DNA from: Alphaproteobacteria bacterium | GTDB taxonomy: Bacteria; Pseudomonadota; Alphaproteobacteria; JABAAW01 | Direction: 5' to 3' | Length of the DNA: 6,401 nt | Assembly (NCBI GenBank): GCA_014239005.1 | Contig: JABAAA010000049.1 | Location: 1,791 to 8,191, forward strand | In this document: one piece after another, positions 2,502 to 5,808 of the stretch | How positions within the stretch are numbered: the stretch's first letter is position 1 | Layout of the letters: each line of letters opens with the position of its first letter | Translations under genes and position numbers: made by a program | Notes under the pieces: generated by a model | The model's input: only the letters and a program-made list of their open reading frames with translations | What the model was told of the DNA's origin: nothing | The model's database searches: none

Positions 2502-3554
2502 CTACACGAGATCGCCGCGAGGGCAAGAGGCTTCACCCCATATTTGCACGACCTTGCGACAGACGCCGTCGCAGTCTTCTACGACCGAATCGCTGACGGT
2601 GTGTTGTTGCGTTGCGTGATGCGGCAGTTGATGGCGCATCCATGTCAGCTGTCGTTTGGCGTAATTTCTTGTTCGCTGTTGTCCTTGTTCGACCATCGTT
2701 TGCCAGGAGATTTCTCCTTTGCAATAGGCTTCGATTTCTTTCAAGCCCAGCGCAGCACGCAAGGGGCTGTCCCAAAAATTTTCCAAAGGATTTTCTAAAG
2801 GATTTTCTAAAGAGTTTTTTGGGGGCGTGGCATTTTCTGCGTTGAACCTGCGCACTTCTTCGATGGCGCCTTGTTTCAGCATGCGTTCAAAGCGTGTGTT
2901 GATCGTTTTGTAAAGGATGGTACGAGGGGGGGAGAGGGTGATCAGTAGGGGTTGTTCTGTTTGTGCGAAGGGGGAGGGTTGTTGGTCGCCTTTGCGAGCG
3001 TCGAGGAGTGAGGCGTTGCAGGTTTCAAAAAATTCAAGCGCGCGCACGATGCGGTGTTGGTCTTGCGGAGCGAGCGTTTGGGCGGTATTGGGGTCGCGTT
3101 GTTGTAGTAGGAGGTAGAGGTTGCGTCCTTCTTTCTGCCAACGTTGCACTTGTTGTCGCGCTTGGGGAGAGGGTTGGGGAAGTTCGGTCAGTCCTCCGAG
3201 CAAGGCTTTAAGATAGAGTCCTGCTCCTCCGCAAACGATGACGGCATCGGAGGGGTGATGGTGCTGGAGGTGACGGAGCAGGGTTCTAGCTTGTTCTGCG
3301 TAGAGTCCTGCGGAGAATCGTTCTTGTGGAGGAGCGATGGCGTAAAGGTGATGGGGGGTTAGTTTTTTGTCTGCGGCGGTGGGTTGTGAGGTAAGGATGG
3401 GGAGGTGTGTATAGAGTTGGAGCGCGTCGGCGTTGACGATGTGGGTTGCGGTGTGAGGCTTGAGGTGTCGAGCAAGCGCGAGGGCGAGATGGGACTTGCC
3501 GCAGGCGGTGGGACCGAAGAGAACGAGCGGACGGAGGGGGTGCGGGGATGCGAT
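2502..3554 (-). CDS. miaA: tRNA dimethylallyltransferase, apparent ATC start
   Basis: MiaA transfers a dimethylallyl group from DMAPP to N6 of A37 in tRNAs that read codons beginning with U. The frame is intact. Counting from the ATC at 3554-3552: P-loop GPTACGKS at 14-21, VNADALQLY at 40-48 (active-site Asp43), PHHLYAI near 71, GGAGLYLKAL at 109-118, DPNTAQTLAPQDQHRIVRALEF in the middle, TRFERML with its conserved Arg, and the C-terminal TRNYAKRQLTW. At about 350 residues it is longer than the usual 300-315, partly through a NSLENPLENPLENF insertion before the ALGLKEI motif. No ATG, GTG or TTG occurs in frame between the stop at 3611-3609 and the P-loop; the first is a TTG at 3203, too late because it would remove the nucleotide site. 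The conserved Thr of GGTxLY is Ala111. The start is uncertain, the family is not. miaA follows flgK by 7 bases on this reading and precedes ilvB by 68. Confidence 0.9.
   Translation of the reverse strand: MASPHPLRPLVLFGPTACGKSHLALALARHLKPHTATHIVNADALQLYTHLPILTSQPTAADKKLTPHHLYAIAPPQERFSAGLYAEQARTLLRHLQHHHPSDAVIVCGGAGLYLKALLGGLTELPQPSPQARQQVQRWQKEGRNLYLLLQQRDPNTAQTLAPQDQHRIVRALEFFETCNASLLDARKGDQQPSPFAQTEQPLLITLSPPRTILYKTINTRFERMLKQGAIEEVRRFNAENATPPKNSLENPLENPLENFWDSPLRAALGLKEIEAYCKGEISWQTMVEQGQQRTRNYAKRQLTWMRHQLPHHATQQHTVSDSVVEDCDGVCRKVVQIWGEASCPRGDLV
2779..2814. repeat. Three tandem 12-base units inside miaA
   Basis: On the plus strand, TTTTCCAAAGGA, TTTTCTAAAGGA and TTTTCTAAAGAG stand head to tail at 2779-2790, 2791-2802 and 2803-2814. 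The length is a multiple of three, so the frame is kept and the protein gains the LENP repeats at roughly residues 247-258. The stretch is much more A/T-rich than its surroundings and sits in a loop before the conserved ALGLKEI segment. It is best explained by slipped-strand duplication. Confidence 0.85.
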
Positions 3555-3561
3555 GACGTTT

Positions 3562-5175
3562 CTACACGCTCGCGAGCAGGTCGTCCAACATTTCTTGCAC
3601 CGATACGATCACCCGCGCGTTCGCAGCGAATGTTCTCTGCAACTGGCTGATCTTCAAAAACTCCTCGTCCAAGTTCACACCGACAAAGTTAGACAACAAG
3701 ACTTGCAACTCCTCGCGCGTTCCTCGCTGCTGCACCGCCCGATCGTCGTACGCCACCACCACATCGTTCAACCTGACCGAAATTCCTTGCACCAAGCCGT
3801 AATAGTTCTGATTCTCCTGACGCAAAGAAGGCGGCAAAGGCAACGGGGCTGTCCCGCCCCCCAAGGCAACATCGATGTTCTCAGCCTGCACGGCGGGGGG
3901 AAAGTTGCGTTCCGCCAACTGAAATGCCGACAAAATGTTTCGCGACGAATCCGATGTCTCCAACGCCTCGCGCAACTCCAACTCAAAGGTGTCGCTCCCT
4001 ATCGTGACGCTGTCCGAATTGCCGTTGAGGATCTCACGAGAAAGCTCGACGGTAAAACGAAACAAATTGTTCGCCGAAGCGCCCGTCGCCACAAACAAAT
4101 CTCGACGCGCCAAGTCGTCCAAGTCCGCCTGCGCCACCCCTCGCTCTCGTAGCTGCTGGACGCGCGACAAATGGAAGACATCGTTCAACGAAGTCGACTG
4201 CGCACCCTCCGCCGTACCCTGAACGCTGCCCGACACGAACGCACGCGCCAAACTCTCCAGCTGGTCTTCATACTTGGCAATCAAGGCGACATCCTCGTCG
4301 GTGCTGATCCTGCTCGTAGCCCCCTCGCGCACCAAGTCGAACAACGCCGTCAGACTGCCCGGACCCAACCTGTTGACATCGTCGTTGGCAACGACATCGC
4401 TATCGACATTCAAGGTGAACTGCTTGCTGCCTCGGTCGTAGCGCAGCTCGTTGGTAATGCCCCCCAACAGCAACGCCCTGCCGTTTTGCAAGTACAGGTT
4501 CTTCGCACCCTTGTCGTCCTCCAACACTTGCAGCGAGATTCGCTCGGCTATGTTGCGCAAGATCTCCTCACGCTGGTTCTCCGCGCCTTCGCCTTGTCCC
4601 GCGTTGCGCGTGCGCGCGACCCGAGCATTCGCATCGCGCAACTGCCCGACCAACCTGTTCACCTCTGCGGTCTGCTGCTCGATCTGATCGTCGAGACGAA
4701 AACGCAGACGCTGCAAGCTCGACGCCGAAGAACGAATCTGCAAGGCGAAATCTCGCGCGCCGGCAACAAACTCGTTATAGGCACTCTCGCTTTCGGGCGA
4801 TGCTTGCAAGTCGCGCAAGGCGCGCTCGAACCTGTTCAACGCAAGATCCAAGGCGGGGGCATCAAAATCGCCCTCCCCCGATGCAATGCCTCCCAAGCCC
4901 GCTTCGATTTTCAACTCTTCGGTATAACGCTGCAAGGTGGAGCGATAGGAAGCCTCGGAAATCTGTTGCGTGTAGCGCCGCTCCAAGCCCTCTGCCGTGA
5001 CACGGCGCACGCGCGCGATACGCACCAAGTTCAGATCGGTCGTCGAGAAGTCAACCTCGTGGCGATGATAGTTCGGATTCTCGGCGTTGGCGATGTTCTG
5101 CGAGCCCAAGCGCACCGCATCGCTCAAGGTCAAGCTGGAAAGAGCCGCGCTCCGCAAGGTCGAAAACAACGCCAT
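3562..5175 (-). CDS. flgK: Flagellar hook-associated protein 1 (hook-filament junction)
   Basis: FlgK is exported through the flagellar type III apparatus and forms the first junction layer between hook and filament. The 537 residues carry both end signatures of the axial family. The N-terminal rod-type motif, with SLTLSDAVRLGSQNIANAEN at about 14-33 followed by PNYHRHEVDF, starts the N-terminal helical region. The C-terminal motif GVNLDEEFLKISQLQRTFAA with NARVIVSVQEMLDDLL ends the protein. Between them are long alpha-helical segments (about 80-200) and a variable middle, as usual. The ATG at 5175 has AGGGGG five bases upstream. The gene lies 9 bases after the FlgN-like gene, its expected chaperone. 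flgL does not follow; miaA does. Codon choice is unlike the neighbours: Leu in the first 23 codons is five TTG and one CTT, and G/T-ending codons prevail throughout. Confidence 0.95.
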   Translation of the reverse strand: MALFSTLRSAALSSLTLSDAVRLGSQNIANAENPNYHRHEVDFSTTDLNLVRIARVRRVTAEGLERRYTQQISEASYRSTLQRYTEELKIEAGLGGIASGEGDFDAPALDLALNRFERALRDLQASPESESAYNEFVAGARDFALQIRSSASSLQRLRFRLDDQIEQQTAEVNRLVGQLRDANARVARTRNAGQGEGAENQREEILRNIAERISLQVLEDDKGAKNLYLQNGRALLLGGITNELRYDRGSKQFTLNVDSDVVANDDVNRLGPGSLTALFDLVREGATSRISTDEDVALIAKYEDQLESLARAFVSGSVQGTAEGAQSTSLNDVFHLSRVQQLRERGVAQADLDDLARRDLFVATGASANNLFRFTVELSREILNGNSDSVTIGSDTFELELREALETSDSSRNILSAFQLAERNFPPAVQAENIDVALGGGTAPLPLPPSLRQENQNYYGLVQGISVRLNDVVVAYDDRAVQQRGTREELQVLLSNFVGVNLDEEFLKISQLQRTFAANARVIVSVQEMLDDLLASV

Positions 5176-5186: not shown

Positions 5187-5808
5187 ACACCTCGCGCCCG
5201 GAGGCGAGCGAGTGCGACAACGACGTCGAGCCCCCCTCGCTCAAACGTCCCTGCGACGTGTACAACTGAGGTCCTTTGTCATTCTCACCTTGCGCAGCAT
5301 CCGAAAGAGCTTCCAGCAGCATCTCCGAGGATGTCAGCGCCGCCTTCAAGCGCAATCCGTTTCGGCGCAAGGCTTCCTCGAAGCGAACATACAGCGTGCG
5401 CAAACGCTTGCGCACGCCTCGATCCAGCGTTGTAACGAAAGCGGAAAGCTCGCCATGCCCGTCCTCCCCTTTCCCTTTCAGACGCGAAAGTTGCAGATCG
5501 TGTTGCGCAAGCAAAGCCTCCTTCTGCTCCGCTTTGAGGCGAAGGGCGTCCAACGAAGAACGTTCCACCACCATGCGCGTCTCCTCCTCGACGACCTCGG
5601 TCGCTTGCACAACGACGCGCGCCAAAGGTGTCAGATCGCCAAACAGCTCCAAAGAAACAGCACGCCCCGAAGGAACAGCACGCTCCGCAGGTACGGACTT
5701 GACCGATACCTCGTCAGCCCGCAGATGCTCTGCTTGAGACTGCTCTGCTTGAGGCTGCTCTGCTTGAGGCTGCGCTGCTTGAGGCTGTTCGTCCTGTTGC
5801 TGGTTCAT
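5185..5808 (-). CDS. flgN: FlgN-like flagellar export chaperone (probable)
   Basis: FlgN binds FlgK and FlgL in the cytoplasm and delivers them to the export gate. The assignment rests mainly on position, directly before flgK and after flgJ, and on the type of protein. The 207 residues are acidic at the start, then helical and charged, with no membrane segment. Residues 52-110 (with ATEVVEEETRMVVERSSLDAL and then LKAEQKEALLAQHDLQLSRL) have the FlgN pattern of a long helix with a K-x-x-LL turn; a second helix covers about 120-170. The first 28 residues are a QPQAE-type repeat made by a 15-base tandem array, which lengthens the protein beyond the usual 140-160. The ATG at 5808 overlaps the flgJ stop (ATGA) and has GAGGAG eight bases upstream. 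It could instead be an unrelated coiled-coil flagellar protein. Its codons end in G/T, as in flgK. Confidence 0.68.
   Translation of the reverse strand: MNQQQDEQPQAAQPQAEQPQAEQSQAEHLRADEVSVKSVPAERAVPSGRAVSLELFGDLTPLARVVVQATEVVEEETRMVVERSSLDALRLKAEQKEALLAQHDLQLSRLKGKGEDGHGELSAFVTTLDRGVRKRLRTLYVRFEEALRRNGLRLKAALTSSEMLLEALSDAAQGENDKGPQLYTSQGRLSEGGSTSLSHSLASGREV
5394..5417. repeat. Perfect inverted repeat inside flgN
   Basis: GCGTGCGCAA at 5394-5403 and TTGCGCACGC at 5408-5417 are exact reverse complements around a four-base loop. In the mRNA this would be a GC-rich ten-pair stem, roughly mid-gene, encoding the GVRKRLRT stretch. No T-run follows on the coding strand, so it is not a standard terminator. 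Confidence 0.7.
5726..5785. repeat. Four tandem 15-base units at the 5' end of flgN
   Basis: On the plus strand, TGCTCTGCTTGAGAC, TGCTCTGCTTGAGGC (twice) and TGCGCTGCTTGAGGC stand head to tail. The two middle units are identical; the outer ones differ by one base each. The length is a multiple of three, so the array gives a repeated five-residue Q-P/S-Q-A-E/A block at about residues 8-27. The copy number could vary between strains without breaking the frame. Confidence 0.9.

Follow-up and report, generated by a model that had tools for sequence, protein, structure and literature searches.

How is MiaA made, if it is made at all, when its reading frame offers no ATG, GTG or TTG codon where the protein should begin? 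The question arises at a flgK-miaA-ilvB locus on contig C280 of G000, a draft genome whose 336 contigs total 1.48 Mb (completeness 69.9%, contamination 2.87%). The window, i.e., the whole stretch of 6,401 nt that we analyzed, encodes MiaA and IlvB proteins whose closest named relatives are mostly alphaproteobacterial. The relevant features are as follows.

5175-3562, minus strand: flgK, 537 codons plus TAG (3564-3562), intact, with a conserved C-terminus
3608-2502, minus strand: miaA frame, 368 codons, open after the TGA at 3611-3609
3557-3555, minus strand: GTC, putative start, in frame, 4 bases past the flgK stop
3554-3552, minus strand: ATC, putative start, in frame, 7 bases past the flgK stop
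3515-3492, minus strand: miaA P-loop GPTACGKS, read in frame
3203-3201, minus strand: first TTG of the miaA frame, the start taken by gene callers, giving a 233-aa product without the P-loop
2433-670, minus strand: ilvB, downstream of miaA, with an ordinary ATG

The miaA frame is shifted by +1 against that of flgK, with 47 bases shared between them. Two in-frame tandem repeats are also present in the window. One lies within miaA (12-base units, 2778-2812), and the lengths of the relatives differ at or near this site; the other (15-base units, 5726-5787) is located in the frame 5808-5185.

A start-codon script, run on the miaA frame from the TGA at 3611-3609, returned the TTG at 3203 as the first ATG, GTG or TTG, in agreement with the first-pass annotation. 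That annotation had also described the segment from the flgK stop to the P-loop as free of these codons in every frame, and the script likewise found none over positions 3564-3502, from the flgK TAG to inside the P-loop. The frame itself clearly encodes MiaA: it scores 190.5 bits with the TIGR00174 model (cut-off 148.65; profile positions 3-278 of 288) and 209.4 bits with PF01715. The 233-aa product from TTG 3203, to which protein P0002 is identical, reaches 99.5 bits with TIGR00174, under the cut-off, and lacks the P-loop. A standard gene call therefore yields a stump here, and the state of miaA would be mis-annotated.

For comparison, we used 119 other proteins (P0003-P0121), in 116 of which a P-loop was recognized. 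The motif GPTACGKS is shared by two of these 116 MiaA proteins, while 113 carry GPTASGKS. The ATC at 3554 had been proposed as the best candidate start, yielding a normal MiaA N-terminus. It lies 13 residues and the neighboring GTC at 3557 lies 14 residues before the P-loop, compared to a median of 11 in the 116 proteins; the proposal thus holds for the N-terminus, and the two codons together are the best-placed near-cognates. A further near-cognate codon in the frame is the ACG at 3584. At the homologous N-terminus of MiaA, the window therefore presents near-cognate codons and no ATG, GTG or TTG.

We surveyed start codons in 61 contigs of G000, covering about 30% of the draft, which were compared against 84 stretches taken from G001, G002 and G005. 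Restricted to non-overlapping best open reading frames (ORFs), the survey accepted 192, from which 26 were dropped as their 5′ end ran off the stretch and eight as their relative itself lacked a start close to the edge of the alignment, leaving 158 informative genes. The script found a standard start in 156 of them, the other two being rplD and miaA. Inspection placed a GTG start of rplD just beyond the survey cut, leaving miaA as the sole gene without a start among the 158. A smaller, earlier run on non-overlapping best ORFs flagged one of 101 informative genes, again miaA. A version that admitted all six-frame ORFs flagged 27 of 173; most of these were shadow ORFs lying in other frames, and this version was replaced. 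With miaA alone among 158, the idea that near-cognate starts are a general habit of G000 is unsupported. By analogy, a single such gene would not be out of line for the class Alphaproteobacteria: for Caulobacter crescentus, the portion of PMC4117421 available reports rare near-cognate codons as starts of 0.25% of the mapped genes, including GTC observed by LC-MS.

Three miaA genes from the same genus, in which the 5′ end can be seen, allow a comparison of the start region (G001:C376, G001:C299 and G002:C100, with 72%, 66% and 51% identity to the gene in the window). Each of them carries an ATG near the P-loop. The spacer between flgK and miaA, in view for two of them, measures ~219 bases in G001:C376 and ~90 bases in G002, versus the 7 bases to ATC in the window. 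When upstream frames were compared, a junction like that of the window was not found upstream of P0003 and P0004, and the C376 spacer sequence, searched for elsewhere in six genomes of the order, matched only itself. The 5′ part of the G003 miaA was not recovered, and the flgK contig of that genome ends 13 bases past flgK; miaA, flgK and ilvB were unmatched in the G004 draft, which is uninformative on the junction. From the sequences compared, spacer and start were likely both lost in the lineage of the window.

Because the relatives carry ATG, a near-cognate codon at the start of miaA is no conserved regulatory device of the infC type. The first-pass annotation had named an ordinary start in close relatives as evidence against an ATC start. 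Such starts do exist in the three same-genus genes, which speaks in part against the proposal; in the window itself, ATC or GTC may still be used. As for infC, by reading, its start is ATG in G000 and G002 and GTG in G001; the infC genes of G005 (L021) and G004 (L025) show no ATG, GTG or TTG before the conserved N-terminus, and ATA, ATT or ATC look like their starts. The presence of two distinct miaA genes in G001 (C376 and C299) suggests a mixed bin.

An assembly or consensus fault, in which collapse of the spacer or an erroneous base conceals an ordinary miaA start, has to be considered in a draft as fragmented, incomplete and contaminated as this one. Just beyond the window there is an unclosed join of 100 N, flanked on both sides by the same 55 bases, and the contigs G001:C299 and G003:C22 both end in the same flgK-miaA spacer, which marks the spot as hard to assemble. 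The N run itself (G000:C280:1691-1790; L014) is located inside ilvC, just left of window position 1. Against such a fault, G000 holds a single version of the junction, and the breakpoints leave both proteins whole. Moreover, FlgK and IlvB have siblings in the protein collection, encoded by contigs 5153 and 9055 bases long, and as these siblings differ by two residues each, another strain has evidently been assembled. No full-length near-identical MiaA is listed, though; the only near-identical entry is the 233-residue form (three cluster members), and the next matches listed are at most 68% identical. This missing full-length sibling would count for a real start loss over an artefact, as an indirect argument, the choice of cluster representatives and the members not being visible. 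We consider an assembly or consensus fault rather unlikely, and rank it third among the readings.

Is the frame, then, still under selection? Pairwise dN/dS values of miaA are 0.33 (window-C376), 0.36 (window-C299) and 0.36 (C376-C299), all rough at dS of 0.5-0.7. By branch, the window value of 0.35 is not raised relative to the 0.31 and 0.40 of the relatives. We found no stop and no frameshift in the 368 codons, and the MiaA motifs are preserved. At 106 otherwise invariant columns, the MiaA of the window has three unique residues, within the range of 0-5 in 13 other sequences. Within a closer clade of eight sequences, no other member has as many unique residues (17 of 173, against 2-9 in the others). 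This could reflect an outside position of the window sequence among the eight, and it also fits looser constraint, as does the lower third-position GC (0.56 in the window vs 0.69 and 0.65). The loss at the junction leaves flgK complete and removes no conserved residue of MiaA, a pattern that continued selection on both proteins would produce.

The absence of a standard start could also mark a young pseudogene, in which spacer and start were lost, MiaA is not made in useful amounts and decay of the frame has yet to set in. The dN/dS of miaA is about three times that of flgK (0.11, window-C376) and ilvB (0.12, window-C299), in line with this reading, and E. coli miaA mutants are viable with slower growth (PMC12249760, in excerpt). 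In addition, the genus already has a reduced i6A pathway, as MiaB, the next enzyme, is apparently absent. With the MiaB model (L126-L131), a true MiaB was found in the outgroup G005 only (452 bits). G001-G004 (drafts 64-86% complete) encode one MtaB-like protein each, just under the MtaB cut-off in G001 and above it in the other three; in G000, the profile models found neither MiaB nor an MtaB-like protein in a draft that is 69.9% complete. MiaB was likely lost in the genus, given that none of the five same-genus drafts, incomplete as they are, shows it. MiaA would then make i6A37 only, a situation in which weak or lost MiaA may be less costly.

The pseudogene reading also draws on the MiaA protein P0015 of a different species in the group: gene calling begins it at an internal codon, leaving 216 aa that score 118.3 bits, under the TIGR00174 cut-off. 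P0015 sits on a contig of 1,625,166 bases; lack of a start, a frameshift and a genuine truncation would all fit.

Against a pseudogene stand the lack of a second lesion, the unraised dN/dS of the window branch and the state of the genome, which is not widely decayed: among 119 shared genes, two look frameshifted away from assembly gaps (six candidates read). These two, at ~3141-3184 and 7574-7716 of L064 (G000:C279), appear frameshifted relative to the relatives and may be real pseudogenes or contig errors. A start loss might also be too recent to have left traces, in which case dN/dS would stay unchanged. We regard the pseudogene as a serious possibility and rank it second, after weak coupled translation.

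The first-pass annotation had also raised a +1 shift at the flgK stop that would fuse FlgK to MiaA, in accordance with the +1 relation of the two overlapping frames. This alternative finds no support in the codons read or the homologs listed. By reading, the codons before the flgK stop offer no good site for +1 re-pairing or slippage, the end point of FlgK is the same in 15 homologs listed (none longer than 548 aa), and the product would tie a cytosolic enzyme to an exported hook protein. We consider such a fusion very improbable.

The reading we tentatively favor, at somewhat less than an even chance, is that MiaA is translated weakly and coupled to flgK, from the ATC at 3554 or from its neighbor, GTC 3557. 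Loss of the spacer would have taken away the old miaA ATG, one transcript would carry both genes, and ribosomes terminating at the flgK TAG would reinitiate at GTC or ATC, 4-7 bases on. The resulting MiaA output would be low yet enough to hold the gene under selection. The gaps of 4 bases to GTC and 7 bases to ATC are as short as those of termination-reinitiation pairs. In gene pairs of E. coli and Haloferax, overlapping or very closely spaced frames show strong reinitiation, which has mostly disappeared by ~20-40 nt (PMC10666635, in part); the junction is thus within reach. Because IF3 favors strong start pairs and disfavors weak ones (excerpt of PMC10158994), a low MiaA output is to be expected.

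By reading, no clear Shine-Dalgarno site is seen before the ATC at 3554, which counts against this start; in Caulobacter, such a sequence is present at 24.6% of the starts (PMC4117421, available portion). RNA structure at the junction was no better than in shuffled sequences. A promoter consensus scan found no site in 3300-3900 or in 4700-5300 of L015, and the same two intervals hold one terminator-like site each, both inside flgK. In sum, the full-length MiaA frame, the unraised branch dN/dS and the position of ATC and GTC at the usual N-terminus count for a weak coupled start, and the ATG in relatives, the bias of IF3 against weak start pairs, the unique residues and the lower third-position GC count against it. 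A more far-reaching version, which we think quite unlikely, would make miaA a translational satellite of flgK, with AUC/GUC reinitiation letting i6A37 track flagellar expression at a fixed low rate; the species that encodes P0015 may then have taken the same route.

If ATC or GTC is used, the locus would represent a natural, lineage-specific switch of a housekeeping gene from ATG to a coupled near-cognate start, and a clean case for testing start-codon choice by post-termination ribosomes. If neither is used, it would provide a snapshot of a tRNA-modification pathway under loss. Among the matches listed, judged by title and beginning of the abstract, literature naming flgK and miaA holds nothing on their junction, and no paper addresses a bacterial AUC/ATC start codon; the available parts of PMC5576327 and PMC11005335 do not contain an ATC start.

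Several known systems resemble single aspects of this locus. AUU starts occur in infC and pcnB. Like these, miaA here would have a near-cognate start in a housekeeping gene; the infC/pcnB-type starts are retained as regulated starts, whereas that of miaA is not conserved and the relatives use ATG. The near-cognate starts of Caulobacter share with miaA the alphaproteobacterial host, GTC among the codons and the scarcity of Shine-Dalgarno sites, but they were demonstrated by ribosome profiling and mass spectrometry, whereas the miaA start is predicted from sequence alone (PMC4117421, as far as available). Termination-reinitiation pairs likewise place the downstream frame no more than a few bases from the stop of the first gene; in the pairs described in the accessible part of PMC10666635 the start codons are ordinary, and the coupling of flgK and miaA is putative. 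In a frame-shifted lambda cI, unusual start codons rescued active protein in the absence of a usable standard start, although this was a plasmid construct that supplied a strong ribosome-binding site, unlike miaA (PMC6397469, in excerpt). The rpoS gene of an E. coli isolate, in which ATG changed to ATA, resembles what is proposed for miaA in the lineage-specific loss of the start, the intact frame and the reduced product; there, a single substitution removed the start, whereas in miaA the spacer is missing as well (PMC12864459, part of the text).
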